The notes beneath the pieces were generated by a model that saw only the letters and a program-made list of their open reading frames with translations, had not been told where the DNA came from and searched no databases. Positions 2,427-63,677 of a stretch of DNA of 64,000 nucleotides are shown one piece after another. Position numbers and translations under genes: made by a program. The first letter of the stretch is position 1, and each line of letters begins with the position of its first letter. This DNA is from Nereocystis luetkeana (taxonomy: Eukaryota > Sar > Phaeophyceae > Laminariales > Laminariaceae), in contig JARUPZ010000012.1 of the NCBI GenBank assembly GCA_031213475.1, forward strand, positions 10,746,727-10,810,726, written 5' to 3'.

Positions 2427-2538
2427 ATGACGGGGACCCTATTGAATAGGACCTACGGTAAACACTACCAGGTAAAACCTATATATTTCGCTGTTTTTAC
2501 CAACAATACTTGGTCCTATTTACTATGGCCCCCCGTAA
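2427..2538. mobile_element. 112-base MITE (family I), TTACGGGGGACC-type termini
   Basis: Imperfect terminal inverted repeats (GACGGGGACCCTATTGAATAGGACC on the left, GGTCCTATTTACTATGGCCCCCCGTAA on the right) enclose a centre that contains CTACCAGGTA. Related copies are at 3060-3171 and 15432-15544. Family length is ~112 bases. It is too short to encode anything, so any mobility would need a transposase in trans. Confidence 0.7.
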
Positions 2539-2813
2539 TAAGACTAGTGCTGTACGTATGAAGCACACTGATTCCAAGCCATTTGTTCCCAAAAGCGTCC
2601 GTGCATGCAACACCTAAAGGGGGTTAACGCTTCCACCACTCTAAACTATTTCGGAGCATTTTGACTAAAAAAAAACAAGGGTGCAAATCTCATGGAGTTA
2701 CTCCTTTTCCAGGTATGCACAACCTCAAAATATGATCACACGTAGCTTCCAAGAATTTTCTCCACAAAAATGTGGGTGCACTTCCAGAGGGAGCTAAAAT
2801 GATGAGGTCTCAC

Positions 2814-2946
2814 CATTATCGCGATCTCGCGGAAGACGTTCTCGTCGGGGAATTGCCGCATGCGCTCCAGCCTAGAGCTCTTGATCGCCACGCCGAACGG
2901 TCGTTGCGCTGTCGGGGCAGCAGCAACACCACCAGGCGACCCCGCC
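2814..2946 (-). CDS. Isolated exon resembling a protein kinase N-lobe
   Basis: On the minus strand an AG acceptor after GGTTTC (2947-2950) opens a 133-base exon that closes at ATG|GTGAGA (donor 2808-2813). The reading frame contains GSPGGV, like a glycine-rich loop, then VAIK (the invariant kinase lysine) about 15 residues on, then ENVFREI, like the conserved glutamate region of helix C. This order and spacing fit the start of a serine/threonine kinase domain. I could not find the HRD or DFG exons in the neighbouring sequence. It is either one exon of a gene with long repeat-filled introns or a stranded fragment. The domain call is inference from three short motifs. Confidence 0.4.
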
Positions 2947-3059
2947 CTGAAACCATGGGGGGAAAAGGCGACAAGACACCCACGTACGGGGGGGGGGACA
3001 GACAAAAGAGGTCACGTTACAATTTTGGGAACCATAGAATATAGGACCGAATATTGTTC

Positions 3060-3250
3060 TTACGGGGGACCATAGTTAACAGGACCTATGGTACACATAA
3101 AAACCTACCAGGTATATGTTTAACTATTTTTACTAACAATATTTGGTCCTGTTAACTATGGCCCCCCGTAATAGTAAAAGTAGGTAAACATATACCTGGT
3201 GGGTGTTTGTGTGTACCATGGGTCCTATTTACTATGGTCCCCGTGATATT
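3060..3250. mobile_element. MITE family I copy with an attached inverted partial copy
   Basis: A complete copy lies at 3060-3171, with TTACGGGGGACCATAGTTAA at its left end and the complementary right end. It is followed at 3172-3250 by about 78 bases of the same element in reverse. The result is terminus, body, terminus, reversed body, terminus, which forms a large palindrome. The centre carries TACCAGGTA at 3106-3114. Confidence 0.75.
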
Positions 3251-4237
3251 GATACCAATTACCGGTATGTTATAATATCAGCAACAGCATGGTACTATAG
3301 CCGTCAATGTAATCATCCTTCAGTATGCATATCATAGTCCAAACGATGATTATATTTGCGGATCATACAATATGTCTTGTATTGATCTCAATATTCATGT
3401 GTGCGAAATTATCGTACTTTTTCGAACTTTTCTCTTCGTTCGGGCATTTTTTGGCGAAACGCTATGTAGTGGTCACGGGAAGCCCGGCCGGACACATCAT
3501 TGGTTGAGGTCCGGGCTCGATCCGTGCCTTCTGGAGGGCGTGGCAAGCCCTCAAAGTTTTTTTTTCGGTGGGAGTGGATAGGACGATTTCCCTGGTTTCA
3601 GTACGAAAGGCCTTATTTTGTACGTACGTACGTACCGGTAAAATGTCGTCAGCCTTTTGCCCCTTCACGAGCACACAGCCCAGACATGTACCAGGTAGAC
3701 AATGGACAACATGCACAGAGCACAACGTTACAACGCTGCAGCGCATACGCACCCGCAGGCAACACCGTGCGTGTGTCACACACTCATCTGCGCTGTACTG
3801 CTGTGGCTAATTGTATTTATCGGAGCCTGCGGTCCGTAATCCACCATCTACCTCTCTTTGCTGCTGCTCATGTGTGACACATCCACGCACACTCTAAACC
3901 GGAATGTAAGGACCGTTTGGATTGAATATATGAGTATCTAAGCTGTCCATATATTTCCGACGTTTTGTGTTTCTTGGCCGAGGCACACCCAAGAAGTCTA
4001 CTGTAGACATCAGACAACACGCACAGAACACAAACAACGTTACACTCCCGCCTACTGCTGTTGGAGCGGGCCACACCACGCGCGTGTGTGTCGCAGGTGC
4101 GAGGTGTACTGCCATGAAGGCTAGTTGCTTCATCGGAGGCTGCGGTTCGTCATCTGTCATCACCACCTCTCTCTTTTTCTTCTGCTGTGCTGCTATCGCA
4201 TGTGTGTGCGGTGTGTCGTGCGCGCCATGAAAATTAT
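3251..4237. other. Non-coding stretch with a diverged ~300-base internal duplication
   Basis: The blocks around 3720-3860 and 4010-4210 share a similar order (ACGTTACA, then a GTGTGTGT(C) block, then a CATC..ACCTCTCT block before TGCTGTGC-type sequence). This looks like an old local duplication. A (GTAC)n run is at about 3620-3636. No gene or RNA is recognised. Confidence 0.4.
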
Positions 4238-4281
4238 TACCAGGTAACATGTATCTTTGTGAATGTACCCTGGTAATAAAA

Positions 4282-9665: not shown

Positions 9666-11505
9666 TACCGGTTGTTCGAATATGCTTGTTCAGTATTTTG
9701 ACGGTTTCATGACTCTTCGGTATATTGGCTTATTATGAATTTCTTGGTGGTTCCTTCTGTGGGTGTACGTGATACCCACACGACCACTTCCATCTGTATC
9801 TACTCTGCCGGGAGACTAATACTAAAAGCTGACGCATCATCTTTCTTCGCCTGGGACTTATCAACACCGGTACCAGGTACCTGGTATTGTTTTTGAATCC
9901 TCGATCTAAAACCACGTACTAGGTATATTTTTCAATTTGTTCTTGCGCCACTCCCCTACGCGGGCACGTCCCGGAGGGGAATCTTGTACACATAAAAAAG
10001 TTATAAATATAAATGTTACCTCCTAGTATCAATGAAACGCCAATGGTCGATGTATACGAAAAAAAAATTCCCCGACACCCAACTACTTTTTTTTTTTTTT
10101 TTTTTTTTTGTAACTCCTCCGGCGGAAGAATCGATCTCCGGGCGTAACCTTGGAAGGGTTATAGACTACCAGGAGCTGGTATATGTTAGAACGACACCAC
10201 ATGCGTCGCATGATCCGTACCCATTTGCAAGACCCAAACAGGGGATGCTAAAACCAAGCGGGATACAAATATGGAAACAAAAATATGTGTTTACTCGTAG
10301 TTATATTCGTCAAGAAATCCCACCGCGCTGGATGAATTCGATCTTGACCTTGCGAAGGAGTAGGTCGTTTTATCTGTTTGTCGAGCGCCCTGGCAATGAC
10401 AAACACTTGGTGATCAATCATGGTCTGTACCAGGTGGTTTGGGCTTCAGCAATAACACACAAGAACACACAAACAGCAGCAGCTCGGGCTTGCTCGATGC
10501 AAAGCATACGCGCACCAGTCCACAAGGAAACTGCACTACGGGCTGTGGTATACCATCACGTACGTTATCAGTTGCAAAAGATATAATGTCCGCGTACGGT
10601 ATCAGTTGCTAAAGTTATATATACGACGTACGCGGACACCCGAAAACAAATGTCTCGCGTAGACTGGAGTTTCTCTGTAGATGTACAGCAAGCAGCGGCT
10701 GCAATGGGCCCACGGAACCAGCAGCTACCATAGACTGCTCTAGACCACAGCAGCAGCTGCTGTGGGCCCACGGAACTAACGATATTCAAAGTATTTTATC
10801 ATCGTTGCTTGATTCGTGAAAACTTTGCTTGCCGCTTGCACAGTAACAGTAAGACCCGTCCTTGGTACATGTACCACTACTGCTGTGTACGGGTATACTA
10901 TTAATATGAGATACCTGGTACTATTCATATAAGATATGCATAATTTGCCCGTTCGAAGCCTGTGTATTGTCAAAAATACTCTCATCTCCAAAACGTCGGT
11001 GGGCGAATGTCAAACGTCACAAATATCACGCAAGTTTGGCTGGCACTCATCTCATTTTTACTCACATACAGCAATACTGACTACAGCAGTTGATTGTGGC
11101 CATATGTATCATACCAGGTACAAATATGCTGCGGTATACATACCTGTGGTACGCTTTATGTATTAACTTCTGAGCGAGCGTCGGACAAGGGATATATTTC
11201 AGCTCAATTAATTTGTACTGGAAAGATAGGTAATTATCAATTTTCCGTCCTCGGGCACACGAAATGTAACGACGACGTAAATGAAACGCCAGGCGGAACA
11301 GCGTCAAGGGTCAAGGGGCGAATCAGCCCAACGCCGCCGGTTGCATCAAGCGCAAATATCAAATACCTGGTACTTAACTCTATTGGCTACATGTCGGTTG
11401 TTGCTTGTTCCTCCGCATGCGTGCGGATCTTCCGTCGCGTGTGGCGGAGTTTTGGGGGTGTCATCGTCGACGGGATGGTACGGGCAGTGTCCGAGCTACT
11501 AGCTG
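9666..11505. other. Non-coding stretch
   Basis: Contains a poly(T) run at 10087-10110. It has several TACCWGGTA words (two overlapping copies at 9871-9886; others at 10912, 11112 and 11364), a 12-base-stem inverted repeat at 10587-10638, and a repeated TGGGCCCACGGAAC block near 10706 and 10766. No gene or RNA gene was recognised. Confidence 0.5.
10587..10638. repeat. Perfect 12-base inverted repeat
   Basis: TGTCCGCGTACG at 10587-10598 and CGTACGCGGACA at 10627-10638 are perfect reverse complements with 28 bases between. The loop repeats the TATCAGTTGC block found just upstream. Its function is unknown. Confidence 0.7.
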
Positions 11506-11722: not shown

Positions 11723-14700
11723 GTCTGGGATCCATCAAACAATCCTTCCACACGTAGGACAGGCCATGATCTGGCTGACCTACGGGTTGTGGATCGTACA
11801 GATCATTAGCTTGAGACGTACGTATAGATCATGCATATCCTACAGATCCATCACATGGAAACGTGTGCAAAAAAACACACACATATCGTACCAGATCAGA
11901 GCTATAAATAAAATAATGCGTGTAGCCTGATGTGTCCGACGTGCGAAAGCCTTCCTACAGAAAACGAAACCCGAAATTGGGTGGATAGTTGGACCTCTTG
12001 GTGGGACTAATGGTTTCTAAAGCTCAAGACACACTCGCTCGACTTTTGCACGAAACATGACTAAAAAACATACCTGGTACCTTAATACTGGAAATAGTGT
12101 AGACTACACCCTGCCTCACAAAAGAATGACTACATTACCCTGGCACAACAGAATAAGAAACTCAGCCTGGCACAAAAACAAGACGCGTACCAAAGACAGT
12201 AGGCCAACCAATACCTACAGCAGGAGTAAATTACGGTATACCACCTCCTTCGGGAACACTACGATTGCGTACTCATATAAACACGTGCGAGAAGATAGTA
12301 CGTACGGTAGACCGTATCACACTACTGCGATAATAGGGTGATGAGTGATGAGATAACACACCACCTACAAGTAGGACAAATTTCAAAGCTGTTTCGGTCT
12401 CGACAGCGGGAGAGGGTGCAGACGCCTACTGATGCGTCTTTGGAAATATCCCGACCGTTGTGTGTGCTCGCTCACCTTTTTTAGGAGAAAATTGGCTCAG
12501 AACATCATCCCAGGGGGTCTGTTGCCTGCTACCAGTATATTGTGTGCTATATACCTACCATGGTACTGCTGTATAGTAGGGTCGGCGGCGAAGTGGCGCC
12601 GACTACCAGAACCTGGTATATATACCTGGTACATTTTACAGGGCTAAAAAATATATACTACAGCAGCAGTTGTACCAGGTTGATTCATCAGTATATATAC
12701 CTGGTATACAGAACCTCACAAACCAGTTCCGCCACTATTGCCGTACCAATTGACTATCATTTGCCAGGTATGCAAGGGATCATGACATGTATTTCTATAC
12801 GCAAGTGCCAGCTAGGGAAAGATGGCGCATGGCGCGCTGGTACGAGTGAACGGCTTGCGGGTGCTCCACGAGGACGTGTCCTCTACCGCACACAGTATGG
12901 TTGGATGATGGATGGATGGACGGATGGATGGATGGATGGCGGACGTGTACGAAAATCTCGTGAGTCACGGGAAGTGGGAACAACGCGGCGTGATAACAGT
13001 GGAAAACACGTTGACCACTCTGGCACATGCACCCGCATTTTCGGGGACAAACTACAAACTTGGTTTTAGAGTTGGGTCATTCTTGCGGTTTCAATACGTA
13101 CAGTAGTAAAATAGTTAATACCTGGTACCCTGGTACTTGTTTCCAATACTGTATCAAAGTAATAAATGCCACGAAAAGGTAATAATATCGTCGAAAAAAA
13201 TGTTGCAAGTATGGATCACCAAGTGCAGCACGTGCCCCCATGCTCTCATGCCCATTTGTGGGGCATGAGTACTCCGGAGCATACATACGAGCACTCAATC
13301 AAGGGGTAACATTGTAACATTCGGATGGCACATGTCAAAGGGTGGCACGTGCCAAGCACATGAATCTTTGTACGCGCGAGACACAGGTGACATCAGATGG
13401 ACAAATAAATGAGCCCCGGAGGACACACAAGACAGGAGCGCCTCCGCATGCAAGCATGCATCTGATACCGCCTTCGTATGCACCTCGTACCTTGCATCGG
13501 CTTCACATAATACGCTTCTAGTCTCGAATATGCCGTAATGGCACATCATGCTCTCTGTTTGGTACTCGTAAAATCTAGGTGATCATGAATATTGAATGTT
13601 CCATAAACTGGATGTGCCGATGTCGTTGGGCTTGCTTGGGTATGTATGATAGAAATGACGGTTTAACGTGAAGAAAAACGCACACACACACATGATCACG
13701 TTCTGGTCGATCGAAACATCGATCGCAACACCTTCACGTATCGTTTTATCACAATGACCATCGCACCACTACTATGAATTACTGTCACCAGGTATTGACC
13801 GTTAACCCATGTACAGCAGCAGAGTGACCAAACACACGACGACTGTGATATTATCGAGCGACTCGAAAGGGCTTGAAACAGTACGACCAGATTGGCATCT
13901 TGTCACGCGCGTGTGATACAGCCGTTGCACCTTGGACACACACCCTCCCGCGGCAGCCCTTCGACGTGTTTCTGCAGGCTCAACTGTAAAGCCGATGCTC
14001 GCAGTGAGAGCCGATGATGTCGCGGAGAAGTCGCCGAGGAGAGGTCGCGAAGCGAGGGTCCCTTGTAGCCGTCCTTACGGCCGACGCAAGCCGAGCAGAG
14101 TTCTTTCTCGTATTTAGCAAGGAATTGACAGACCCAAGAGGGTCAAGGCTATTGGCGTAACACCGCAGGGGGTCGCAAGGATCTTACCCGATCGGATCGA
14201 TTCTGGAGGTATTATACCCGTAGTCAGCTTGAGGGGAGAGGTCAACACGGTCCATGCGGCGGACCTCTAACAACCCGATATCTAGCCCGGTGGGATATTT
14301 CATGCATGACTTTGAGAGGTATGACATCCTTCATTGCATGCGTGTTCCGAGGTCTACGACCGATACGTCTTACCCTGTCCGTGGCATTGCCCCCCTCTTT
14401 ATTCGCCTCAAGTTCATATTAACTAAGGATGGTTTTGTGGCGTCATCTGAAGGATGACTAGTCAAGGAACAGGGTGACGGTCTATCTTACCCTGTCCATG
14501 ACACAACGGGGGAAATAGTTAATACTGCAACTTTTGCCATGTACGTCAGCACTACCAACTGTGTATACCGTTGTCCCACTGCTGTGACCACAAACATTTC
14601 ATATATTTATTATAGGTTCTAAGACGAGTATCCACCACGGACACTCGGTGTGTTGGATATCGATGGGTAGAAAGAACGAGCGGAGTAGTCTGAAGCACAC

Positions 14701-15431
14701 ACGCCGACAGAAACGTTGATACACCAATACGTCAACACCTGGTATATACGAGTATACATGTCGGGATTCCCTTTCGCGGCTCCCCTTGGCAGTAACCGAT
14801 GCAATGCCATAGACGGTAACTGCACTGCAATGTGTACCTCCCCATCCATCCACTGCTACCCGACCACATCGGTTGCAAAACATTTTATTTTATTTTCATC
14901 CTCGGGCGGATTGGTGAAAATAAAAAAAGACGATCAAGTTCGTTCGGCACTACAGCAGTGACAGCAGTACACTGTGTACAGCAGTATGGGCAAGGTATGT
15001 ACGTGTACAGTATGGGGGCCGCCCGTCCGCCCGCCAGCCAGCAAGAAACTCCAATCGTTTGCGCTCACGATCAAAATACCGGAACCTTATTGCAACACCA
15101 ACCTTGGACACCAAAGCGAAGGGGCTCGCGCTATTCAAATAGTTACGTACGATAATTCACATTGGCTAGTCTGCTGTTGTAACTACTACCGGTACAGGGT
15201 GTACCAGGTATACCTTGTACGCACATATCGCGTAACACGCAAAACGTAACCCCCCGTCAGCCGAAGTTTGAAGCTGATTTGCGCGACGATGGTGAGAGTG
15301 CAGACATCGAGCGGTGCGTCTTTGGGGAAGTCCCCACGAGACGTTTCCAAAGTCACCGTTTGGGTCCCTTGTGCACCCATCTGTTGTTTGGTGGAAAGTC
15401 GGCTCGGAAATTCGTCCTGGGGGAGGCGCTA
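11723..15431. other. Long non-coding stretch
   Basis: No exon with convincing boundaries was found in about 3.7 kb. It holds TACCWGGTA words at 12071, 12623, 12698, 13119 and 15202, and several ACTGCTGTA/TACAGCAGT words. A GGAT tetranucleotide run at 12903-12940 and short purine tracts are also present. Open frames here are short and low in complexity. Confidence 0.5.
12903..12940 (+). repeat. (GGAT)n microsatellite
   Basis: About nine GGAT units with two substitutions, followed by non-repetitive sequence. Confidence 0.85.
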
Positions 15432-15544
15432 TTACGGGGGACCATAGTTAATAGGACCAAGATATTGTTAGTAGAAATGGTTAATTACATACCAGGTAGG
15501 TTTTTATGTATACCACAGGTCCTATAAACTATGGTCCCCCGTAA
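15432..15544. mobile_element. 113-base MITE (family I), best-preserved copy, TA target
   Basis: TTACGGGGGACCATAGTT at the left end is matched by AACTATGGTCCCCCGTAA at the right end. TA flanks lie at 15430-15431 and 15545-15546. The TA duplication points to a Tc1/mariner-type transposase acting in trans. The centre contains TACCAGGTA at 15490-15498, as in the copies at 2.4 and 3.1 kb. Confidence 0.8.
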
Positions 15545-16370: not shown

Positions 16371-16839
16371 CGAGATAAATTTCCAGGAATACTCCTTTGC
16401 TCTGTATATGCTTGTACGTTCACGTACTGCGACAAAAAATAACACCTGGTATGAAATAAGGTGGAGGGGGTGAGGGGGCTGGAGGTTAATATAGCTCCGC
16501 GGTCTATGGTGCTCAGCACTGATTTTGATGCTGGGTTCAACTCCCGGGCTGCGCCGATTTTTTGCTTTTGCACTCAACGATTCTGGACCGTTCGACGATT
16601 TTTGACTGTTTACGATTCGAGCTTCGCGCGTACGGCCTCCGGCGGCTCCTGCGGAGGGCTAACCATATTTCTGCAAATTGTGGGTGGCAGCAGGGTGACA
16701 AACGGGATCAGGTCCGGGTGGGGTCAGGTCCGGGTGGGATGAGGAGAGTCAAGCAGGGGCCTGTTTTATTTTCCCGCTTATTCTGGAGAAAATTCCCATA
16801 ACAGTATTCTATCTACCAGGTACTAAACATTCAGAACTC
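16371..16839. other. Spacer, no gene seen
   Basis: Contains a GGTCAGGTCCGGGTGGG short tandem near 16710-16740 and nothing else I recognise. Confidence 0.4.
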
Positions 16840-17455: not shown

Positions 17456-18466
17456 TCATCATAAAACCAACAAGGGCGTGTACCGGGGGTGGGGGGGGCA
17501 CCTGTGATCCATGGCTCGTTCTGAAGGTCGCTGAGTCATGGCTCTTTCTGAAGGTCGGTGAGTAGCAACAAAATCTCGTGCGAGCTGAGTTGGACTGTAA
17601 ACAAAAATGGCGTAAACCTTCTTACCAACGGTGTGAAACATATTCGACTCTCCCAAGTGGTTGGCCCCAAAACGCGCATGTGAGCAACGTAAATACCGAT
17701 ACGTAGTTCCAAAGGTATCACGTGTATAACGTTGCAACCCTTTCACACCTGCTGCATCCCATGTTTTGGGGACAATCTGTTAATCCTCTTGGGACTTGAG
17801 AGGGGAAAATTGACGATATAAAGTGAGGATAGCAGCGCGAATGGGGGATGGTACAAATCAATGTACGCGTTACAACGCAAGGAGTCGTAGGGCACGGGAG
17901 CAGTATGACCCTACCCGTACGTACTACTGGGCGCTGACGCTGCTTTTTATATACAGCAGTATTAGAGGTTCATATCATACCTGTTGCGTAACACCAAAGT
18001 TATCATTGTCTTGGTCAGTATTGTCTCGGGTTCCCTAACGTGGAACTAGAGTTGGGATCATTCTTGTACTCCCAGTCACGTTTTGATGGGAAACCGCGTG
18101 ACATTACAGTTTAAACATTTTTGCTGCAGAAGCGTGGAGGCGTTTCTCTCAGGACGAATGAGGGTCTACAAAACAATATTATATTTGAACAAAATGCAAA
18201 ATACCTAAAGAACGTACCAGGTACGAGGTATGTACAATACTGCAGCCGAACGACAATCACAACTCTTCGGCCAAAGGTTTCTTGCATTTTGCACTTTGCA
18301 TATTTTCAAATTGCAGCAGGTGGAGAGGTCGCACCGCCTTGTCCTCTCGAAAATGGGCCTCGTCGCCCCACCTCACTTTTTTTTCATCAGAGGTCACCCT
18401 GGTTTCTCAATGGTCCTTGTTAATACCAGGTACCTGCCAATTATTACCACGTTTTTAGGTGGGTGG
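17456..18466. other. Non-coding stretch
   Basis: Roughly 1 kb without a recognisable gene. It carries TACCAGGTA at 18215 and 18424, two copies of GTTCTGAAGGTCGCTGAGTCATGGCTC-like sequence near 17510-17570, and a decayed family J end near 17740. Confidence 0.4.
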
Positions 18467-18473
18467 TTGTATA

Positions 18474-19602
18474 GAACTACATACTTAGATCACAACCCCT
18501 GAGCGTGCTCGGTTGGTGCATCCCTGGCCTCTCAGAGCTCCCACTTCCAAACCGCCTCCTTTCATTACTTGCCGGACCTTTCCAGCAGTCTTTGTTTTCT
18601 CGGTCCTTCCTTCCTTTTTTCTTCTTTCGTTTTGTGTGCATGCGTGTTCTCCGAGCACGGCATCGCGGGAGGACCCGGCACCGTCGCGGGTGCCAGCGAG
18701 TGCTGGCGGGTAGAGGGGGGGTTGCAAGGAGCGCGGCCGCCGCTTTCGTGCCTAGGCGTCGCGTGTGCCTCGAGACACGAGGGATGCATGAACGGGCTTT
18801 GTCTGGCTTCGATTTATGATTGTAGATAAGAGTATGTACGAGTTTATAAAGGTCGTTCGGGAGGGCAAGATAATATTCAAGCGGTTCTTATTTTTGCGAC
18901 CACGCTGAAGTTGAACGAAGGAGGTGTGCAGTTTGAACACCAACGTTATCGAGCTGGCGAACGACGGCCACGGTGAGCACCGGGCTTCACGCGGGGCGGG
19001 CGACGGGGCTGATTGTGGCAGAGAGTGATAAACGCTTTACCCGGACCGAATCGGTAGCGAGGTGGTCGCGAGAGGGGCGGGCGGCGTACGAGGCTGAGAA
19101 AGAAGCTCTTCTGTGCGATTTTTTCTTTCTTCTTTTCGACCGGGTGTAAGGTGTTCCAATCAGGCAGAAAAATATTACACGAGAGGGACGGGGATTTTTT
19201 TCCCTTTCCGAGTTTTCGGTTTCATTTTCATTGTTTTTGCTACTGTGCCCTGCTGTGCTTTCGCTTTCTTCGTACATACAGTACAGACATACCAGGTAGA
19301 GCGTATCGAAAGCAGAAAATAAGTACAGACAGCAGTAGTACCCTACCTGGGGTGTATGTACGTACGTACGACATCCGCGACGCGAAGCGTATATGTGGCA
19401 TCCAAGCTGACGTCGGAGCTGTTTTTTCCTGAAGCATGGCGGCGGGACTCTTGGCATTATCAAGTCGCCGGTTTGCAGTTACGATCCTTGAAAACACTAA
19501 ACTCAATCGTTGACCTCTGTTCGCTTCGCATAATTTGATGTACTTTTTTCCTTCCTGAGCGAGCGTAGCGGGCGGCGTAGGCCGCCCGCGGAGCGAAGCG
19601 CC
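18474..19602 (+). repeat. RepA, single full-length copy flanked by TTGTATA
   Basis: Same block order as unit 1 with few differences. The terminal hairpin is at 19568-19589 (9-base stem, loop GTAG). TTGTATA occurs at 18467-18473 and again at 19603-19609. This could be a 7-base target duplication, or the junction sequence left when a unit recombined out of a tandem array; the same TTGTATA joins the tandem units at 1.19 kb. Confidence 0.85.
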
Positions 19603-19606
19603 TTGT

Positions 19607-20214
19607 ATATAATATGATGCTGGCACGAGAGGTACGCGGATATACCGCCTTTAGAGTCTACTCGAATATGAAATCATTAATGCTGTATGTATGATAGCGG
19701 TATTCTTTTGGAGCCAAGACGTCGCATCGTGCCATATGATACGATAAAGGAGAAAGGTACCAGGTATACGAGTACGAGTACAGTATACAGCATACAACAG
19801 TGCCTGGCACACGGGTACACCCGCACAAGATTTGTCGTCTAGGGAGTACCTGTGGTGCATATTTCATGTACGCAATACATCAGGGAAGGTTGCCATCGAG
19901 AGGTGCCAGTTGGGGTCGAGACATCGAGGTGCCGAACGAGTCCGTCGGTACGCGATAGGGGGTGCTCTACGAGGACGATAAGATGATCAGATGATAATCC
20001 TGAATGGTCTACAGGGGCTGTGACAAGCCAGAGTGGTAGGGCTGTGAGTTGGCTGACCATAAGCTGCCCACTAGCCACCACAGTAGTTGGCTAGGCAGTA
20101 CAGCAGTACCTGGATTTTTTTTTTTTGTAGTCATCACTTTTACTTTCCACAGGAGTTTTTACCCTCAGCGATCTTCTGGACAAGCCGTGATCACACGTGT
20201 CATCCCTTCTCCCT
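19607..20214. other. Spacer
   Basis: No gene seen. Contains TACCAGGTA at 19758 and a short poly(T) run at 20117-20126. Confidence 0.4.
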
Positions 20215-22468: not shown

Positions 22469-23269
22469 GCAGTGGTTGCTTGCTTTTGGTACATCGAACA
22501 TGTCTGTGTCTTCGCATCTGGCTGGCCCGTTTTGTGGCTCAAACTGTGCTCATTTTACTGACAAAAAGTACAGGTAAAAAGTCGGGTAGTAGGCTTACTT
22601 CGCCAGCCAACTGTTAAATACCTGGTATAAATACAGTAGTAGCACATAACACCGATAGTAACTACGATGGCAGTACCTATGAAGTCTATTAATAGTCAAC
22701 TCACAGCCCTACTGATTGGCAGAGGAATTAATATCCGGTACCATGTACCAGGACGTCGCCGGCTTTTCCCCCCTGCACTCATACGAGGGTAAGAATGAGG
22801 CATGCATGCGTCCCTAAATCTTCTACGCACAGGGCCCAGCAGCCTCCCATCGAATGCCCAATTGGGGAGACATATTCAATGCTGTCTGTAGCTCGCCCTC
22901 TGTCTGGTTTTCATGCGACCCGGCGGGATACTCTTGGATGTCTACCAACGTGCTGGTAAGAGTTGCGTGCAGCAGCAGCAGCAGCAGCAGTAGCAACAAA
23001 CAGAAGGAGCAGAGGAAGGAGTTCTCGTTCGATCGTGTCATCAGCTGCACGTGCATGTGGGCGAGGGAGTATTGAAATACAAGAGCGGATGGCACGAATG
23101 GTGACAAGCCCAAAAATACGTACCAGGTACCAGGTACAGGCTACGAGCATGCATACGAGTACTATTCGTTGGACGATTATATTAGCAACAGGAGTTCGAG
23201 TCGCGCTATCGAGAGTGTCTGCCGTGTGCAAGCGTCAGAGAATAGGTTCCCCAGGCTGTACAGGACGTA
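22469..23269. other. Spacer with a short CAG tract
   Basis: Contains TACCTGGTA at 22619, two overlapping TACCAGGTA at 23121-23136, a (CAG)6 run near 22971-22990 and a CTATTAATAG word near 22686. No gene recognised. Confidence 0.4.
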
Positions 23270-25752: not shown

Positions 25753-26034
25753 ACTACTCAAATAAGAAAAAACACCACTCACTGCTTGTAAACAGAGTAA
25801 GACAAAGAACCAAGGAAAAAAGTGCAGTGTGTGAGCTTTTTTTCAGACTGCATGAGGTTTTTTCTTTGCTCTTTTCTGCCGACCGATGACGGATGAGCTA
25901 CATATTGAATCACTACAAAAACAATTTGTTGTACATACATGTTGTACAATGCGATCCGTTAAAAAATATACCAGGTACCAGGTAAATGTTTTTTGCTTTG
26001 TGTTGCATGATTTGAGCTTTGCTGATGTTTCCTA
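25753..26034. other. Spacer sharing a segment with the LINE fragment at 45.6 kb
   Basis: The block CACTGCTTGTAAACAGAGT..AAGACAAAG..ACCAA near 25778-25815 recurs at about 45640-45675, in the 3' region of the dead LINE. Two overlapping TACCAGGTA words lie at 25969-25984. Confidence 0.45.
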
Positions 26035-27780: not shown

Positions 27781-27839
27781 CAGCAACAACAGCAACATAT
27801 TACAGCAGCAGAGGAGTACCAGGTATGTACCAGGTACTA

Positions 27840-30088
27840 GGCAACAGCAGTAACAGCGGCGGGAAGCAGCCGACCGGGCAGGACGAGCTCTCCGACGAGA
27901 TCAGGCTCAGGATCTTTGGGGGCGACGGCTTGAAGCCGCCCATTCTGTTAAACTTACAGGTGAACTGCGGGTTGTAAATTTTACTCTGTTTTATAATACA
28001 CGCTTGATCCAAAACCACAGAATAGCACCTACCTCGTGCCCTTACTTAGCAGTGTTACCACGGACGGTGGTCAAGAGCAACCTTGCCTGTGTCGTCAAGA
28101 CGAATGACGAAGTTTGTTTTTTCAACGAGACTCGACATCGCCCCGACCGTCGTCCGCCGTCCTTCTCGCTTGTTGAATCCACCCCCAGATGACTCCTGCG
28201 CTGACCGCCCAGTGCTTCAGGAGGCAACGGAGATCAACATGTACATAGAAAACGAGCTGACCGCCGTAATCCAGCCGCCCCTTCTTCTCCAAAAGGTGGA
28301 GATGGAGTCCTTGCCGAGTATCGTGTTCGACCCCCCCGCCGTCGCTGCTGTCGGTGTCGTTTCTAAGAGCGACCAGCCGGGTGGAAAACAAGGACGTTCT
28401 TGGCGCAGACGCGGAGTGGGACACGGTCGATCCGGAGGGCAAAAAGTGGCGGCCATCAATGCCCCCCACCAGCGCGGCATGCCCTTCCCCTTCCACTTGC
28501 AGAGGGTTCCTTCTGGGTTCACAAAGGAGGCGTTCCCTACTGCTCTCGAGGGTTAGGTGAGCGTAGACCACCACGAGTGTCACGACAAATAACATCTGGT
28601 TACGTTTTTACCTGTTTCCCTTTTTTCCTGGGAGTAATACCTGCACTCTTTTGTGTTTGCACCAACTTGCACGGCGACCGCCTTTCTGCTCGATAAACCC
28701 CCTGCGCTGACTATTAATAGTATCGCCATCGAAACGGATGCTGCCCAGGTCTTCAACAACTGCGGCGTAGAAGCGGCGAATACCTTGTACTTGCACCCGC
28801 TCGCCAAGTTGAAATTGGTAGCACACTCGTCTCGATTACACGCCACCATGACGGCATGCCTGCTGGGGAAGCAGTTAATTAACAGCGCCATTCTGTTCTC
28901 CCGCTGCTCCAGCGCTCGTCTCAACGACACACAACGGAACTAAGGTTTTATTATACCTTCACCTCGGTCGTTATGTGCAAAGCGATGGTCGAATCGAAGT
29001 GCGCCGTCGCCTCGCCTCTGCGTTCCCTGAACCTGAGGACCTGGCGCCCGGTTTGAAATGTATGGAGGAAACACGGTGGCCGGTCAAAGCTCTATCATCG
29101 AATATGTCGGTACGGCAGTACGTAACCGTAACGCTCAGCGCCCCTCTAGTGCTACACACAGAAGTACCCTCGTCCCTCCCGCCCTCGTACACGCCCCTCT
29201 CCGCGAAGCAGGTGCACCTGTATAGCATCAGCTATTCTTCGCGCATGAAGCTCTCTGTCACGGGGAAGCTCGGGCGCAGCTGGTCGGGCGGTGGAGAGCG
29301 GTCAAGATCACGAGGGAAACATTACTAGGTGCCTTCGTCCTGTACGCCAGGTCGCCGCCGATACCTGTGTCATGGAAGGCCTGGCAAGCCACGAGCAAGC
29401 GTTACACGGAACGACATGCAGTATCCGCTGCCGCAGGCGGGGGCGCACCGCCCCGAACCGGCGCCTTTCCTCCCACCTGTACGGAATCGCAGCGGACGGT
29501 GGCGAGGGGTTTGATGCAGCCGTGGAGGCGTGCTGCCCATGAAGGAGGAGCATTTGTTGAGGGAGGGGGGGAGTATGCGCCAAGATAAAACACGGCCAGA
29601 GTCTGCTGAACCGGCCTCTTTCGATGATTTGGCGTTGGGGGGTGTAGGTATCATTCGCAGGAGGAATCTTACAAGCCATCGCTGGACGACGGTGGGGAGG
29701 CACTGGCGATTTCAACCACGAGGACCTTCCTACCGGGTACCCCGCAAAGGGAGCAGGTGAGTCATTGGTCGTTTGTTGTAGCCCAAACGCAAAGATGGCG
29801 GCATGCGTGTAAACATTCTACGTTTTTTTTTTGCGTTTGGTGGAGTCTGACACTTTGCATGCGACTGATGTTGTGTACCAGGTAGCCCTTGCGTGTGATT
29901 GAAGCTTCGGTTTCACTGTCCAATGCGCCCATCTGGCGTAGACCGCATACATTTCCATTCAAGTGCCAAATAAGACTGACGCCGGAGGTGACGACGCTGC
30001 AGGCGGAGGCAAAACAGACAACGAGTCGATCGGTCTCGCCGTTGGCCCGGACCACAAAGTCTCGGGTCTAATGCAACCAGGCGACAGG
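27840..30088 (+). CDS. Candidate multi-exon host gene, weak TRAPPC13-like similarity
   Basis: Four segments in collinear order recall TRAPPC13, a subunit of the TRAPP vesicle-tethering complex. They are a KFVF..LDIAPTVV segment near 28105-28150, EINMYIENELTAV..LLLQKVEME near 28230-28310, GKLGRSW..GERSR near 29255-29310, and VSLSNAPIWRRPHTFPFKCQI near 29900-29965. Good splice signals are present: donors CAG|GTGAAC near 27957, GCAG|GTGAGT near 29756 and ACAG|GTGAGC at 30088, and an acceptor near 29882-29887. After KCQI the best continuation (PNKTDAGG.., ending GLMQPGDRGIQ at the donor) lies in another frame, so at least one indel or unseen intron interrupts it. Composition is GC-richer than the flanks and free of the window's repeats. 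The identification rests on short matches and may be wrong; a decayed gene is possible. Confidence 0.35.
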
Positions 30089-31162: not shown

Positions 31163-31943
31163 TTGAATCAGTGGATGCATTTTGAAGTCGTTGTCGGGCC
31201 ACAACCAATCACCGCTGTCGCGGCAAAACTATTCATGTTTGTTTGTTGCGTCCCTCATATTCAGGGCTACCGCCTGCATCTTCGCACCCTCTTCGTCGTT
31301 TGCATGAGCAGGAAGATAGCCAGCCAACTACTAAGCTATGCTTCGGTGTTTGCGAAGCGCGCATGGCTGCCGATCATGAAAATTGTCGCGGGGTCGTCAG
31401 GGGGATGATACAGCAAAGCACCGCCCAAGAGTTTGAGCACACTGCCGTGACCACGCCTCGAATGTTTGCTCCCGGTCCCGCAATGGGAGATTTCTTGGCG
31501 TCATCCACGGTCGCGGCCGGGACGGTGGGGGCAGGGGCGGAGATGAGTCCGCGCAAGGCGGGTGGATATGGTCAGGGGGTGGTGGGCGGAGGTATTGGCG
31601 GTCGTACACCGATAGAGAAAGCCGGAGGTTGCCAGGAGTATGGACACCGCAAGGGTGGATGGTCTCAGATCGACTCTGGACCCATATTTCGACGAGAAAT
31701 GATGTATCGCACCTGCACATATTTTTTTCCCTGGTTTTTCGTTGCCTATAATTTGTGACGATTCCCCCACAACCCTTCACCTGCAACAAATGTACCGGCA
31801 CTGCCAGTCTATCCGGAAAGTACCAGGTAACCCAACGTGAATAGCCGTTTTCCAGTCGGATTCTATCTCGAAGATATACGCACTATTACTTGGAATCGAC
31901 TTCTAACGTAAAAAAAAAACTTTCCCTCTACCATTACAGGTAA
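31163..31943. other. Spacer, no gene seen
   Basis: Frames on both strands are open over ~400 bases because of GC richness. No motif recognised. TACCAGGTA at 31821. Confidence 0.35.
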
Positions 31944-38689: not shown

Positions 38690-38765
38690 AGAGCGCGGTT
38701 ACACTGAAAGTGTGAAGGTGTTACCTACTGAGCTACCAGGTATAGGGGTAGAAGATCGATCGATT
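38690..38765 (-). mobile_element. SINE head (family L), A box
   Basis: The minus strand reads CTGGTAGCTCAGTAGGTAACACC with a canonical A box (TAGCTCAGTAGG) followed by CTTCACAC. The B box is not preserved. Related heads lie at 38945-39040 and 39390-39450. Confidence 0.5.
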
Positions 38766-44050: not shown

Positions 44051-45969
44051 AAAGTCACCATTTCAGCTTTCTTCGCGGCCAGTATTATAGCCAAGGACGA
44101 TCTTGGGTTGGGGTGTACTGCTCTTGCACTGCTCGTAAGCACACATTCCAATATAGTCAAACCTTCAAACATAGTATCCAGCGTCAGTAATGAATAGTGG
44201 GGCAAACCATGTATAATACTCGTATATCGTTTGCGAGCACACGCTGGGACGAACGCTGTGGGTGATGATGCACACAGCCACAGCGAGAAGAGCAGTAAAA
44301 AAAAAGTAGCAAGCAGCAAAATTTATTCATTCATCGCATGATAGTTCATTTTAGCTGCTCTACCAGGCTCTACTCGCCTACACCTACACTCGTGCTATAC
44401 AGCAGTAGGCTATTATAAACAAGCCACCAGGTATGTACGTACGTACCTCCTGGTATACGTACTGCTGCTATATGCTAAATAACTAGCTATAAATAACCGC
44501 ATAATTATTACCAGGTACCCAGGTATATGTTTCGCTTCCACAGAATAAACAAGGCGCACATTACAATAAAGCATCACGCACGCAGCACTCAGGAATACGT
44601 CGGGCCCAAGGCATGCACAGCAGTATAGCTGCTGTGCAATCACCGGTCAATAATGCTCGCAACAACTTCAACCGCTCGTCCTCAAATTAGAGTACCATGA
44701 AGACTGTATATATAACACTGTCGACACCAACCATTACTCTTCACCGCGAAATCAACGGGAACTCCCCCACCGCGCAGAAGACATAGATAGGCGATCTCTG
44801 CTGCTGGTGACGGGTGGTGCTAAAGAGCGATGGAGATACGGCAGGTAGGTGTACGACTGCTGTAGATTACAGCCGACAAGCTTTGTATGGCTCTCTCCTT
44901 GTGTGCGAGCTATTTAATACCTGGTATAGACTAGAGCTGGAGCCATGTCGGCTTATTATTTAGAAGATAGATGCCGATCTTCGAAGAAAGTGGATCTTGG
45001 GGAAATTCTCGGGCCCCTGGAAAGGTTTTCTGTCATGTCGTATCATATCTTGATATATCATGTATCACGTTTTTTTCACGAATATATCTTACGTCATACC
45101 AGGTATATATCAGAGCGTTTTCAAAAGTGATACCGATACCGACCTCTATTTGAGATGATGATGCGTTCTGCGTCGGGATAATGCTCGGTGCGTGTGTGTG
45201 TTCTTCACATTAAACCGTTCTTTCTACCCGTCGACATCCAGCACAACCAGTGTCCGTGCCGATTCTTCAATCCTAGAAGAGATATAAGGTCTGTGGTAAC
45301 GAAGCTACGCCACAGAGATACTACGTTGCCACGTACCTGGTACCTGGTACCTGGTATGCAGTAAGCATTGCAGTGGGCAATGCAATGCCATGTCAGGATA
45401 CTATTAATAGATACGACAGGCACGACATACACAATCTATAAAATAGGGAAACGAAAAGAAACAATCAAAGAGAAAACGAAAACAAAGTAGACAAATCGAA
45501 AGAGAGAAAGAAAAAGAAAAAAAATGACAGCAAAAACTAGGAGAAACGATCGGTCGTGCCCCCCCCCCGCAGGCGAGGTGGCCAACAACACTTACTTGAA
45601 AAAGAACGAGCTGGAAAAAAGAAAAAACAACAAAAAACACCACTGCTTGTAAACAGAGTCAAGACAAAGGACCAAAGAAAAAAACAACAAAGGGGAAATA
45701 ACAGGCAGACCAAAGCCCAAAGCACCCTCCAGGTGGCGACAGCAGTTTGTGGTACGAGTAGTATAGCCAGGTTCCCCCTGCTAATCCGCCTGGTACCTTG
45801 CTACCCAGACTGCCGTCTCCGCCCTGCGTTCGTCAACTATGCCCAGCCCCTTGGCGTCAGACAAAACGAAAAGCAGAGCAGGTTCGTCATCCAACCACGC
45901 CACACGGCTCCTTCAGTACGGCTTATCAATCAGAAAGGGAAGAGAAAAAAATAAAATGAAAATCACGGA
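44051..45969. other. Non-coding stretch
   Basis: About 1.9 kb without a recognisable gene. It contains TACCWGGTA at 44509, 44918 and 45097, and a triple overlapping run at 45334-45356. The purine-rich block from about 45440 onward is the 3' region of the dead LINE that follows. Confidence 0.45.
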
Positions 45970-52315: not shown

Positions 52316-53320
52316 GCTGAGCTTACAAAAGAATAACCGTCAGGGGCTTCAAACGGCAGTAAGTCCTTGTCGTCAGCGATGTCGTCGTCCATGTCCAGCA
52401 CAGCCTCCTCATCAACCTCTTGCTCCTTCTCGCTCTCACTCTCCTCCTCGTCGCTTGAACCTGGCGGGTTCTCCTCATCCGCGGGAGCAGGCGAGATCGG
52501 TAACACGTCCCCCAGCGGTTCCGGTGTAGTATCAACCTCCATGAAGGAGTACGTGCCCCGCTCTACGCCTGGGAGATTTATGAGGTCTAGTCATCGCTGC
52601 CATCTGCCGTCATCGCCAGCCCCGTCTTCTCGAAGAGGCGCTTGCGGTACGCAGTGTCGCCGTCGATCTCTTTGAGTATTTTTCGCGGCCTCTCCGGTCC
52701 ATTGCGTGATCAAGATCCGACGATCAGACGCCGTCAGCTTATTGGGCTCCCACGTTTCTACGTTATCGCCGTCAAGAAGCCACTTGTCCAGAGCCTGCCC
52801 CACGTAGACCTTGAAGAGCTTCCCGTACCCGGCGTCCACAGATTGCACCTCGTCGGTTCATTTCGGGGGCAATAGCCACAGCAGAGTGTCACACTTCTCG
52901 CTCAACACACGCTTGAACTCGTCGGTGGTCTGGCCGTACAGGTTGTCGGCAAAAATAATAGACTGCTGTTTCTCGGGTACCTCAATGGAAGCGCTAGATA
53001 CGCCCTTGCGGAAGGTGTTGCCCGCCCAGGAGTTGCAGAAGGCCGAGTCGGCCCACGCGCAACCTTGCCAGTAGATGTCCACACCTGGGTGCCACGCCGC
53101 CCTCTCAACTGCAGATATCCGTTTTCCTGAACCACGGAAGATGATGGCGGGCCTGTACACTCTTTGGCCAGGACCGAAGGTCAGTTGTAGAGTGCACTGT
53201 CGCTTCTCCAGGCCAACAGACAGTTCTGAGATACGGACGCGCTTGCTCCCTTTGTCGGCCCACGTGCTGTTCAATCCGTTGACGAACGGTAGCGGCGCCG
53301 AGCAGGAGTTCTACCACAGG
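52316..53320 (-). pseudogene. pogo/Tigger-like DDE transposase, broken
   Basis: The minus frame at 53274-52858 contains TWADKGSKRV, a WAGNTFRKG stretch, then FADNLYGQTTDEF (likely second catalytic aspartate) and LLWLLPPK. A TGA follows at 52852-52854 where family members usually have a cysteine codon. The same frame then continues TDEVQSVDAGYG (likely third aspartate). Near 52680 the frame shifts, and an acidic Ser/Glu/Asp tail follows at 52542-52316. DDE_1 transposases cut and paste pogo-type elements; homologous genes are sometimes kept by hosts. The N-terminal DNA-binding part is missing beyond 53320. Confidence 0.72.
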
Positions 53321-53639: not shown

Positions 53640-53900
53640 TACTGCAGTACGACGTGTAACGCAGCAGCGGAGAACACGTTGAACAGTAACGGTGATACCT
53701 GGTAGTACACAGCCTTGCCGCAACCCCTGCGTGACATCAAACCATGCCGAGTGCTCGCCGTCATCAGTACGAACGCGAGCCCGCATGCCATCGTGGACAT
53801 TACGGATAATTCTCAGCATCTTGGTTGGTACGTCAAAGCGTGTGATTTCCATAACAGCTCTCGGTCGATACTCGTGAAGTCGTACGCTTTCTGCATACGC
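53640..53900 (-). pseudogene. RTE-like LINE reverse transcriptase fragment
   Basis: The minus frame reads [23 protein letters not shown] and [12 protein letters not shown], matching the region before YADD in the intact LINE. The similarity ends on both sides. On one side it abuts a family H terminus at 53905, which probably inserted there. Confidence 0.75.
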
Positions 53901-56595: not shown

Positions 56596-56601
56596 ACTTG
56601 T

Positions 56602-57480: not shown

Positions 57481-57599
57481 TACTTGGCCCAAACGTTGCT
57501 GTGGACAGACAGGCGAAGTCTGCCTATGACTACTCGTAGTTGGGGTTCGTTAGTTATTACCAGGTACGTACGTAGGTAGAAGAAAGAGCTAAAAAAACA

Positions 57600-57856: not shown

Positions 57857-57862
57857 AAAACC

Positions 57863-58214: not shown

Positions 58215-58215
58215 A

Positions 58216-60274: not shown

Positions 60275-60532
60275 TCAGGAAGGAAAAAAGTACATCAAAT
60301 TATGCGAAGCGAACAGAGGTCCACGATTGAGTTTAGTTTTTTCAAGGATCGTAATTGCAAACCGGCGACTTGATAATGCCAAGAGTCCCGCCGCCATGCT
60401 TCAGGGAAAAACAGCTCCGACGTCAGCTTGGATGCCACATATACGCTTTGCGTCGCGGATGTCGTACGTGCGTACATACACCCCAGGTAAGGTACTACTG
60501 TCTGTACTTATTTTCTTTTTCGATATGCTCTA
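60275..60532 (-). repeat. RepA partial copy (3' part)
   Basis: Minus sense, covering from the ATATCGAAA block to the TTGATGTACTTTTTTCCTTCCTGA end. It continues in the hairpin at 58781-58830 across element F. Confidence 0.8.
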
Positions 60533-61650
60533 CAAGGCGCTTCGCTCCGCGGGCGGCCTACGCCGCCCGCTACGCTCTCTCAGGAAGGAAAAAAGTACAT
60601 CAAATTATGCGAAGCGAACAGAGGTCCACGATTGAATTTAGTTTTTTTAAGGATCGTAATTGCAAACCGGCGACTTGATAATGCCAAGAGTCCCGCCGCC
60701 ATGCTTCAGGAAAAAGCAGCTCCGACGTCAGCTCGGACGCCGCATCATACGATTCGCGTCGCGGATGTCGTACGTATATACATACCCCAGGTAGGGTACT
60801 ACTGCTGTGCTTATTTTCTTATTTTGATATGCTCTACCAGGTATGTCTGTACTCGTATGTACGAAGAAAGTGAAAGCACAGCACGGCACAGCAGCAAAAA
60901 CAATGAAAATGAAACCGAAAATTCGGAAACAAAAAACATCCCCATCCCCTCTCGTGCAATAATGTTCTGCCTGATTGGAACACAAAATCGCACAGAAGAG
61001 CTTCTCTCTCAGCCTCGTGCGCCGCCTGCCCCTCTCGCGACCACCTCGCCACCGATTCGGTCCGGGTAAAGATTTTATCACTCTCTGCCACAATCAGCCC
61101 CGTCGCCCGCCTCGCGTGAAGTCCGGTGCTCACCGTGGCCTCCGTTCGCGAGCTCGATAACGTTGGTGTTCAAACGGCACACCTCCTTCTTTCAACTTCA
61201 GCGTGGTCGCAAAAATAAGCACCGCTTGACCATTATCTTGCCATCCCGAACGACATTGATAACTCGTACATACTCTATCAAAAATCATAAACGGAAGCCA
61301 GACAAAGCCCGTTCATGCATCCCTCGTGTCTCGAGGCACACGCGACGCCTAGGCACGAAAGCGGCAACCGCGCTCCTTGCAACCCCCCTTCTACCCGCCA
61401 GCACCCACTGACACCCGCGACGGTGCCGGGCTCTCCCGCGGTGCCGTACTCGGAGTACACGCACGCACATGAAACGAAAGAAGAAAAAAGGAAGAAAGGA
61501 CCGAGATTGCCAAGAGAAATGGAGAAAACAAAGAACTGCTGGAAAGGTCCGGCAAGTAATGAAAGGAGGCGGTTTGGAAGTGGGAGCTCTGAGAGGCCAG
61601 GGATGCACCAACCGAGCACGCTCAGGGGTTGTGATCTAAGTATGTAGTTC
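60533..61650 (-). repeat. RepA full-length copy, minus orientation
   Basis: From GAACTACATACTTAG (complement near 61640) to the hairpin at 60549-60570 (perfect 9-base stem). It contains the same internal blocks as unit 1, with a ~60-base deletion in the TTTTCTTTCC region and an extra 18 bases near 61498-61520. Confidence 0.85.
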
Positions 61651-61654
61651 TATG

Positions 61655-62115
61655 TCTGTACTGTATGTACGAAGAAAGCGAAAGCACAGCACGGCACAGC
61701 AGCAAAAACAATGAGAATGAAACCGAAAACTCGGAAAGGAAAAAAAATCCCCGTCCCCTCTCGTGTAATATTTTTCTGCCTGATTGGAACACCTTACACC
61801 CGGTCGAAAAGAAGGAAAGAAACAATCGCACAGAAGAGCTTCTCTCTCAGCCTCGTACGCCGCCCGCCCCTCTCGCGACCACCTCGCTACCGATTCGGTC
61901 CGGGTAAAGCTTTTATCACTCTCTGCCACAATCAGCCCCGTCGCCCGCCTCGCGTGAAGCCCGGTGCTCACCGTGGCCGTCGTTCGCCAGCTCGATAACG
62001 TTGGTGTTCAAACTGCACACCTCCCTCTTTCAACTTCAGCGTGGTCGCAAAAATAAGCACCTCTTGAATGTTATCTTGCCCTCCCGAACGACCTTTATAA
62101 CTCGTACATACTCTA
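61655..62115 (-). repeat. RepA internal fragment
   Basis: Corresponds to about positions 430-880 of unit 1. It abuts the start of the neighbouring unit at 61650-61655, so this cluster is a tandem array with deletions. Confidence 0.8.
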
Positions 62116-63677
62116 TCAGACCTGTATAAAACTCAGAAATATCGCGATATTTGGGGTTTAGAGCCAAAACATGTTCGCAGATTATCTTTGTGTCTATGCG
62201 CATCGATTAAGAACGAACTTTTAATGTATTTAAATAAATATACCCCTGACCTCTGTTAGTACCTGTCAACTACTTGATGTATGACATATGCCCGACCCTT
62301 TGATCACTTGCCCAAGCAAGTGTTCGATAACATGTTTAGTCTGCACGTCCGACCAAATTCGTCACGCACGCCACTCCTGTGGGATACATGATGTGCCAAC
62401 AGCCGTGGATGACTTGATTAGTTTCGTGGATCTTCACACCATGAACCAATCGCACGAGACATGCGATGAATGGATACTCGTACGGTAAAGCTCACGCTCC
62501 CATAGTATGGCCATATATATATCGATATATAATATGGTGAGTGTGTTTGTCGTTACAACATCAGCGCCGGCCGCAACTACCATGCGCATGAATATGTCAA
62601 TATCAAGGGCATCAAGTGAGTTGGAGATACCCCCCCCCAGGGAAGCCATCTACCCCCCCCCCGGTAGTGCGCTACATGTACACAGTATGTATAGTACCTG
62701 TCAATTTCCCTGATATTATATACCTGGTATACACTTGACCCATCGATCTCTTGCCCACCCGTGCAAGGAGTTTGCGCGTCTGACCAAAACAAATTCAGTA
62801 TTCACCCAACTTGTGTTGGAGGCAGATGTATTATTAATAACAGCGGTGTATAGATAAATGACTCGGTCTTGTCTAATCGATATATATCCACACCACAAAG
62901 GCCTTCTGTAGACCATGCCGGCCGCTTCTATATCCCTTTTTTAGCGCAGAGCTGCCCGACGTCCACCAGTTCGATCCTGACAGGACGCGTTAGACATCCC
63001 AGGTACGAATTATACCTGCTCGACATGTCCTGCTCCCGGATATCATGCCCCCAAGGCTACTATATCTCTTGGTATGCAGAGTATTTGGGCCGCAACAACA
63101 CTAAAATATTACCGGGTACGTACCACACGTGTACACGAATTTATCGGAATGTATTGCGGACTTGTGCCCAAGGTTCGCTCATACAGTCAGTATCTTCCCG
63201 GTACCATACAATACCAACCTGAGTTGGTTCGCCGGCGGATGGGCAAAATTAAAGAAACTACGGAAATTCTGGTAGATTGATCTTCAATTTTCCAGGAATT
63301 TTTGCTCTTGATCACGTAGTTCACTGGTCAGCTGAGGTCGCGCGCTTCCCGTTTGAGATTGCTGTGCTTGTCGAACTGTGTGAGAATGATTTCGTGCGCG
63401 AGCTCTCTTCTTTGTTGTACCAGTTATGTAAATATTGGACTCATATCAATTACATCGTAACGCCCGCTCAACCTGCTCAGGCTTAGTTTCGTTTCGGCTA
63501 GTCCTTGACCTCCTCGGGGATACACATGTCGTATGTGTTGTTTTTCGCTCATCAATCATAGAATATTTCAACCTCAAAATTCGCAATTCGCCCGTTAACA
63601 ACAAAACACGGATTGTTTCTCGATCTGTTCCAGAGTCTCCTCACAAGCTTTCCCCTACTACCTGGTATTAAGCGGGC
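62116..63677. other. Non-coding stretch
   Basis: About 1.5 kb without a recognised gene. TACCTGGTA at 62721 and 63659. A diverged internal repeat (GACCC..TTGATCACTTGCCC..TCTGACCAAA) appears near 62290-62360 and 62735-62790. Confidence 0.4.

Follow-up and report, generated by a model that had tools for sequence, protein, structure and literature searches.

The window analysed here is a stretch of 64,000 bp from the genome of the brown alga Nereocystis luetkeana (contig JARUPZ010000012.1; C12:10746727-10810726). It contains the intact open reading frame of a long interspersed nuclear element (LINE) at 5774-9541, copies of a miniature inverted-repeat transposable element (MITE I), copies of a repeat called RepA and many occurrences of the palindromic 9-bp word TACCWGGTA, where W is A or T. 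This word is the subject of the present analysis. It is found exactly 41 times, overlapping matches included, with a central A in 26 cases and a central T in 15. The original prediction had put the number at about 41, and every coordinate that it listed is among the matches.

Markov models of orders 1, 2, 3 and 4 give 0.28, 0.63, 0.62 and 1.49 expected occurrences in the window, respectively, so that the claimed over-representation is borne out; the order-5 expectation is 9.0, a model of that order already holding most of the word. The signal belongs to one exact word because the single-letter variants are so few: each neighbor with a change at any letter other than the middle one is found 0-5 times. 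The pattern TACCN{k}GGTA occurs 44 times for k = 1, of which 41 have W, and 11 times for k = 8, which is the tandem form. Each of the remaining values of k between 0 and 30 gives 0-4 matches, with no further favored spacing. A microsatellite origin was rejected, as the word is discrete and spacings beyond the 7-bp stacking are at background.

The excess is not local, because the word is abundant throughout the assembly (465,085,209 bases in 1,987 contigs), where it was counted 182,395 times and the reversed control word 1,744 times, a 105-fold difference. The genome-wide count, proposed earlier as a check, is thus not near expectation, and these numbers together with the Markov expectations exclude a chance origin. 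The density is 0.39 per kb genome-wide and 0.64 in the window, which is therefore richer. Twenty 10-kb stretches, one per contig from C1 to C20 and each at the 2.0-Mb position, contain 60 sites (0-8 each) compared to expected totals of 1.6 (order 3) and 2.2 (order 2), and the one-letter neighbors are also rare there, at 0-8 each. An artefact of a single assembly project was rejected too, as three sites were found in 8 kb of a contig from another project (L010).

A sharp word with few one-letter variants and a CCWGG core could be a functional palindrome, recognized by a dimeric DNA-binding protein, by chromatin or by a modification system, and brought to high copy by selection or by word-biased mutation. 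HIP1 (GCGATCGC) of cyanobacteria, a palindrome present in very many copies, is a precedent. The bearing of the paralogous copies on this explanation is described below.

Most of the window sites are known from the word match only. The label 'footprint' given to them below is an interpretation of such matches, which carry no strand ('.'). Single sites are located at 3689..3697, 10912..10920, 11112..11120, 11364..11372, 12071..12079, 12623..12631, 12698..12706, 15202..15210, 16814..16822, 18215..18223, 18424..18432, 19758..19766, 22619..22627, 29876..29884, 31821..31829, 44918..44926, 45097..45105, 62721..62729 and 63659..63667. The site at 27817..27825 is followed 2 bp downstream by another at 27828..27836. 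Three sites have a variant next to them: TACCCTGGTA lies just downstream of 4238..4246 and also follows 13119..13127, with which it has a TA in common, and TACCCAGGTA follows 44509..44517.

Paralogous copies with and without the word

The 35 site clusters of the window were compared by BLAST with 150-bp flanks. Alignments extended across the site at five only, in agreement with the earlier statement that most sites share no flanking sequence. The five belong to two families, MITE I (2466, 3106 and 15490) and RepA (19290 and 60835). When more of the genome was sampled, 38734, 45334, 53696 and 57558 were also found to have paralogues. No common sequence emerged from the flanks of 30 isolated sites in the window.

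RepA is a TA-flanked repeat of about 1.1 kb without evident inverted ends (CAAGGCG... / ...GTAGTTC) and with a GC-rich hairpin near one end. Copies are found at 60533-61653, 18471-19615 and 71-1193, and one copy is inserted in another. A single position of the repeat is seen in several states. It is empty in the copy at 865..925 (minus strand), which reads GATATGCTT-TA-TGTCTG; the extra GTCTG just after the TA is the reason why this copy scored +5 in the paralogue comparison described below. One copy reads GATATGCTC-TA-CCAGG-TA-TGTCTG (60835..60843), and another, read in the same RepA orientation, GATACGCTC-TA-CCTGG-TA-TGTCTG (19290..19298). A further copy holds a different occupant, a 1.1-kb RepA element with a TA on each side (60533..61653, plus strand). 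The fifth copy has the TA at that position and other changes nearby.

MITE I gives a similar picture. Six copies were aligned, three from the window and three from L010; four are filled at three different TAs and two are empty. With CCWGGTA removed, all six align without any 7-bp gap. The footprint at 2466..2474 has a TA of its own, and those at 3106..3114 and 15490..15498 share another TA with opposite W in the MITE orientation. Removal of both CCAGGTA units raised the identity of the copies at 2466 and 3106 from 40/58 to 47/58. The pair 2466/15490 was mis-anchored (18/57) and was left out of the pairwise test. In 272 kb there are 29 MITE I copies with a length of 80 bp or more, and six of them carry the word.

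Informative paralogues were available for 15 of the 94 loci in the same 272 kb. After exclusion of paralogues with less than 75% identity or poor anchoring at 12 bp, 119 of the 262 comparisons were retained, and these are not independent because 107 of them come from six MITE I loci. Relative to an empty TA, the paralogue length differs by 0 bp in 60 comparisons, by +1 in 18, by +2 in 13 and by -1 in 6; 18 paralogues carry the site, and the last 4, which lack the exact word, are at -4, +3, +5 or +7 bp. Empty paralogues have one TA and filled copies have two. In the window, the footprint at 38734..38742 has two paralogues with a single TA in L022 (92% and 88% identity), and the three stacked footprints at 45334..45356 correspond to one in L022 (site 831). 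The paralogues of 53696..53704 are empty in both L022, which has TA, and L027, which has CA. Indels of 3-13 bp between paralogues of at least 80% identity number 112, of which 16 have the form TA-m-TA. The insert m is CCAGG six times, TTAA twice and A twice, with six others once each. There are 15 indels of 7 bp, more than of 6 bp (8) or 8 bp (5), and the CCAGG cases make up six of the 15.

The best reading of these comparisons is that TACCWGGTA originates as a 7-bp insertion, CCWGGTA, at TA and not as a binding site made by point mutation. HIP1 differs in this respect, being a word kept in place without an insertion signature, whereas TACCWGGTA arises by insertion at TA in the repeats of a eukaryote. 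The word had also been described as missing from the LINE. This holds for the intact open reading frame, but the footprint at 53696..53704 adjoins a stretch about 70% like that LINE, and LINE copies are therefore not immune.

The copies could instead have been multiplied with a few repeat families that already carried the word. The commonest MITE I-type target is indeed filled at 2,905 places, 6 of the 29 sampled MITE I copies have the word, and the footprint at 57558..57566 shares a filled site of a repeat with its L015 paralogue (site 9564). However, 2,905 is 1.6% of 182,395, the 30 isolated window sites lack a common flank, MITE I is filled at several TAs, and the exact word is absent from 23 of the 29 sampled copies. 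Spread with two repeat families was rejected because the flank alignments spanned only five window sites. As far as these data reach, derivation of all sites from one or two families, which would have undone the original prediction, is not what is found, and amplification of carrier families is a very unlikely source of the word.

Target preference, stacking and variant residues

When the 7-bp units were removed from the 91 loci in 264 kb, a symmetric, palindromic and AT-rich bias became visible around the TA. A/T accounts for 86% at position -7, A for 54% at -6, T for 43% at -4, A for 45% at -3 and A/G for 77% at -1. None of 500 random TA samples from the 264 kb had as strong a bias in total, and none of 2,000 did when the 36 window loci were taken alone. 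Such a bias would fit a transposase that picks a bendable palindromic target; a 9-bp binding word would have no evident reason for it.

The overlapping tandems noted earlier form four groups in the window, with steps of exactly 7 bp. Besides the triple site described above, they are the pairs at 9871..9886, where W is A and then T on either side of a common TA, at 23121..23136 and at 25969..25984. Over the 91 loci there is one unit at 82, two at 8 and three at 1, and the middle letters of neighboring units are AA in 3 cases, TT in 4 and AT in 3. A scar would hold two TAs and could be hit again, which would give the 7-bp tandems. Across the 264 kb, W is A in 62 sites and T in 39. One-letter variants number 90 there, compared to 43 for the reversed control word and 101 intact sites. 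As a rough inference, the excess of 47 corresponds to 5-6% substitutions per position, so that the scars would be neither brand-new nor ancient.

Truncated forms are not enriched in the window (TA-CCA-TA 4, 7.4 expected; TA-CCAG-TA 2, 2.0 expected). A mariner-type 3-nt overhang CCA followed by partial repair was rejected on the count of TA-CCA-TA, TACCATGGTA being present once with 0.06 expected. There is a minor class with one extra base. The 264 kb contain 12 cases of TA-CCWGG-N-TA, nine with G as N, two with C and one with T, and the extra G would be the sixth base of a transposon end.

The commonest MITE I target, AAAAACC-TACCWGGTA, is found at 2,905 places in the assembly, a count by pattern and not copy by copy as MITE I, and its control at none. 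Among the 100 matches listed, a hand count gave W as A in 71 and T in 29. The same target is followed by CCWGG and then A, C or G at 289 places (control 3), and in 87 of the 100 such places among the matches listed the next base is G. Some of the G-continuing places may go back to a single event passed on within a MITE I subfamily. Of the 289 places, ten were read as short pieces, picked by hand and not at random, five with G next and five with A or C. Three of them (L057, L058 and L059) have TA-CCWGGG-TA within a MITE I copy, and in L057 and L058 additional TAs carry footprints as well. Small changes of other kinds are found in the MITE I copies L055, L056 and L062; for L060 and L063, assignment to MITE I is uncertain. 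L064 has filler at the junction. In L061 (G000:C1:21794831-21795031), the CCAGG junction of a MITE I copy carries telomere-type CCCTAA repeats, in the manner of a break mended with telomere sequence.

Junctions such as those of L061 and L064 resemble repaired breaks and, taken with the lack of a visible donor, might mean that the 7 bp were inserted directly, as filler or by templated end-joining where TA is nicked or broken, a transposon never having been present. Yet one would not expect filler to consist of an identical 5 bp every time or to show a symmetric target preference at fixed distances, and an origin of this kind is highly improbable.

A functional palindrome appears equally improbable. 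What separates paralogues is a 7-bp insertion at TA and not substitutions, the target preference in the flanks reaches to -7, MITE copies and the neighborhood of LINE-like sequence contain the word, and there is a minor class with one extra G. Three candidates had been offered for the word. The footprint of a transposon is strongly supported by the insertion at TA and the transposase-like target preference. The protein-binding or chromatin site and the modification-linked word leave the empty TA paralogues, the sharing of TA in 7-bp steps and the extra-G class unexplained; judging from sequence, neither appears to be needed.

The proposed excision model and known systems

TACCWGGTA is very probably the excision footprint of a TA-duplicating cut-and-paste DNA transposon of the Tc1/mariner/IS630-like type. 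The element would insert at TA, preferably in palindromic AT-rich surroundings, and the TA would be duplicated. On exit, the transposase would cut inside the element, whose end would read CCWGGG, and leave 5 nt of each end (CCWGG) single-stranded at the donor site. The resulting 5-nt 3' overhangs, CCAGG or CCTGG, would be self-complementary except in the middle and could anneal and be sealed. Resolution of the central A:A or T:T mismatch to A or T would give W, and the product, TA-CCWGG-TA, would be 7 bp longer than the empty site. A 5-nt overhang predicts both TACCAGGTA and TACCTGGTA, with a minor CCWGGG class.

Sleeping Beauty reportedly leaves TACWGTA, with a central A:A mismatch. To our knowledge, footprints of Sleeping Beauty and other Tc1-like elements have come from assays and single loci and not at 180,000 per genome. 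The piggyBac elements target TTAA and excise precisely, and hAT-type elements duplicate 8 bp of the target. At TACCWGGTA the target is TA, a residue remains, only the TA is duplicated and the same 5 bp are found whatever the flank. The palindromes of hAT-type footprints come from flanking DNA, according to a passage in PMC4561436.

Passages in several sources (PMC7827188, PMC7913693, PMC1925063, PMC4561436) describe how Tc1/mariner and Stowaway elements, when excised, leave behind the TAs and a few bases from the end of the element, and a passage in PMC2642840 places the mariner cut 2 or 3 nt within the element. Sleeping Beauty and Tc1-like elements likewise target TA, duplicate it and leave the 3' overhang of staggered cuts as residue, as outlined in part of PMC7827188; the overhang is 3 nt there, whereas the one behind TACCWGGTA would be 5 nt. 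Stowaway MITEs and Osmar elements of grasses have TA on both sides of 1-4 bp of terminal inverted repeat and repeated hits at one TA, but the passages in PMC1925063 and PMC4561436 describe several different footprints per single locus, unlike the uniform 5-bp residue found here. Brown algae carry many Mariner-Tc1 elements; for Ectocarpus, the parts of PMC12477816 that were covered give 17 families and 11,912 copies, most of them non-autonomous. The word 'excision' is absent from the main text of that paper, and the parts covered contain no end sequences that could be compared with CCWGG.

Several observations weigh against the excision model. The residue is 5 bp, or 6 bp in the minor class, and Tc1/mariner footprints are usually 2-4 bp according to a passage in PMC7913693. 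The model does not account for the excess of A in W (62 compared to 39). In the window, TACCGGTA (3, 1.0 expected) and TACCATGGTA are slightly raised, and the extra-G class may be partly inherited within MITE I. In the alignment of the MITE I copies at 2466 and 3106, 18 of 1,600 pairs of 7-bp removals did better than removal of the word (best 49/58 compared to 47/58), since the word common to both copies is then scored as homology. At L027:5762, taking out 5 bp (CCTGG) gives a better fit than taking out 7 bp, an ambiguity due to an adjacent TA run, and L022:8865 is 11 bp longer than its paralogue. Most of the remaining points concern the donor. No element with CCWGG ends was found, and the 616 possible end pairs in 272 kb did not score above the shuffled control. 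The ten pieces from the 289 variant MITE I-type places contain variant or decayed scars, filler, telomere-type repeats and unrelated DNA, and no donor. PF13358 (DDE_3) has no matches in the assembly, the frames having been searched without introns. PF03184 (DDE_1) has 28, and at 20 of these loci no CCWGG inverted ends were found within about 1.5 kb on each side; the inverted ends seen there, CAGTACCGGCC... among them, are different.

An element with direct instead of inverted CCAGG ends would make the mismatch step needless, W being simply the orientation in which the lost element lay. The occurrence of both W states at one and the same TA of a repeat is consistent with this, and at 44361-44433 of the window TACCAGG...CCAGGTA occurs in direct order, a single case without further support. 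Tc1/mariner-type elements have inverted ends, as stated in passages of PMC4505599 and PMC7827188, and direct ends are unlikely.

No donor was recognized in the window, and 103 half-sites in 264 kb have no common inward sequence beyond ordinary repeat copies. If the ends are recognizably inverted, their absence from 264 kb suggests, by the rule of three, fewer than about 5,300 donors genome-wide and at least 30 scars per donor. The chances are about even that a single lineage, with 5-nt overhangs that are nearly self-complementary, wrote some 180,000 uniform scars in 465 Mb and that its own copies are rare or gone. Footprints are already known as a kind; what is new is their number, their uniformity, the 5-bp residue and the apparent excess of scars over donors. 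Excision scars are usually described locus by locus, and here they make up a genome-wide word at 105 times its control. From them, past cut-and-paste events could be counted and their targets profiled independently of surviving copies, and repair outcomes could be read from very many events at once. If the model is true, each scar adds a TA target, excision gives rise in a new way to dispersed words and to short tandem repeats, and scar words can serve as a fossil record of elements without surviving copies. Whether a transposon can leave scars in numbers well above those of its copies can now be tested directly in the genomes of brown algae, and an over-represented eukaryotic palindrome need not be a binding site.

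Other repeats and words

RepA and MITE I were considered as donors and rejected, as their ends are CAAGGCG/GAACTAC and CGGGGGACC, respectively, and not CCWGG. A DDE_1 transposase fragment is located at 52861-53310 on the minus strand, about 400 bp from the footprint at 53696, and has relatives in Pylaiella littoralis and Ascophyllum nodosum; it has no ends that tie it to TACCWGGTA. Two DDE_1 loci of the assembly, L045 and L048, and less clearly L051, have inverted ends CAGTACCGGCC... that are flanked by TA and spaced about 2.2 kb, and represent a TA-targeting family of the same genome. The best named relative of the LINE protein at 5774-9541 is from Ectocarpus. Neither this protein nor the MITE I end has a match in IMG/VR. 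A scan of that database for the double word gave nine stretches; in eight, the two overlapping sites of the pattern are the only ones, and the ninth has three. Rfam gave no match at the gathering score. In literature searches, no title among the matches listed presents TACCWGGTA as a footprint, and searches with both words as text gave titles, among the matches listed, that are not on transposon scars. L010 (JALZWD010000061.1) is filed under a Flavimaricola metagenome-assembled genome, but its 8 kb contain MITE I and other brown-alga-like repeats, and it looks like host contamination.

A second word, the 10-bp palindrome CTATTAATAG, occurs five times in the window (22686, 28711, 45401, 51989 and 63801) and eight times in 200 kb, compared to 0.18 expected. 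Paralogues carry CTAG in its place; this was seen for L022:897 in comparison with window position 45342 and L027 3760, and for window position 45401 in comparison with L027 3761. The paralogues of 63801 have CGAG, and the other aligned copies differ more and are not informative. From these alignments CTATTAATAG looks like a second footprint family, with TTAATA added at the TA of CTAG, which suggests several scar-leaving lineages. Two further pairs of words, TACGAGTA/TACTCGTA (18 occurrences) and TACAGCAGTA/TACTGCTGTA (11), are well above expectation in the window, for example at 19767-19780 and 59180-59193.

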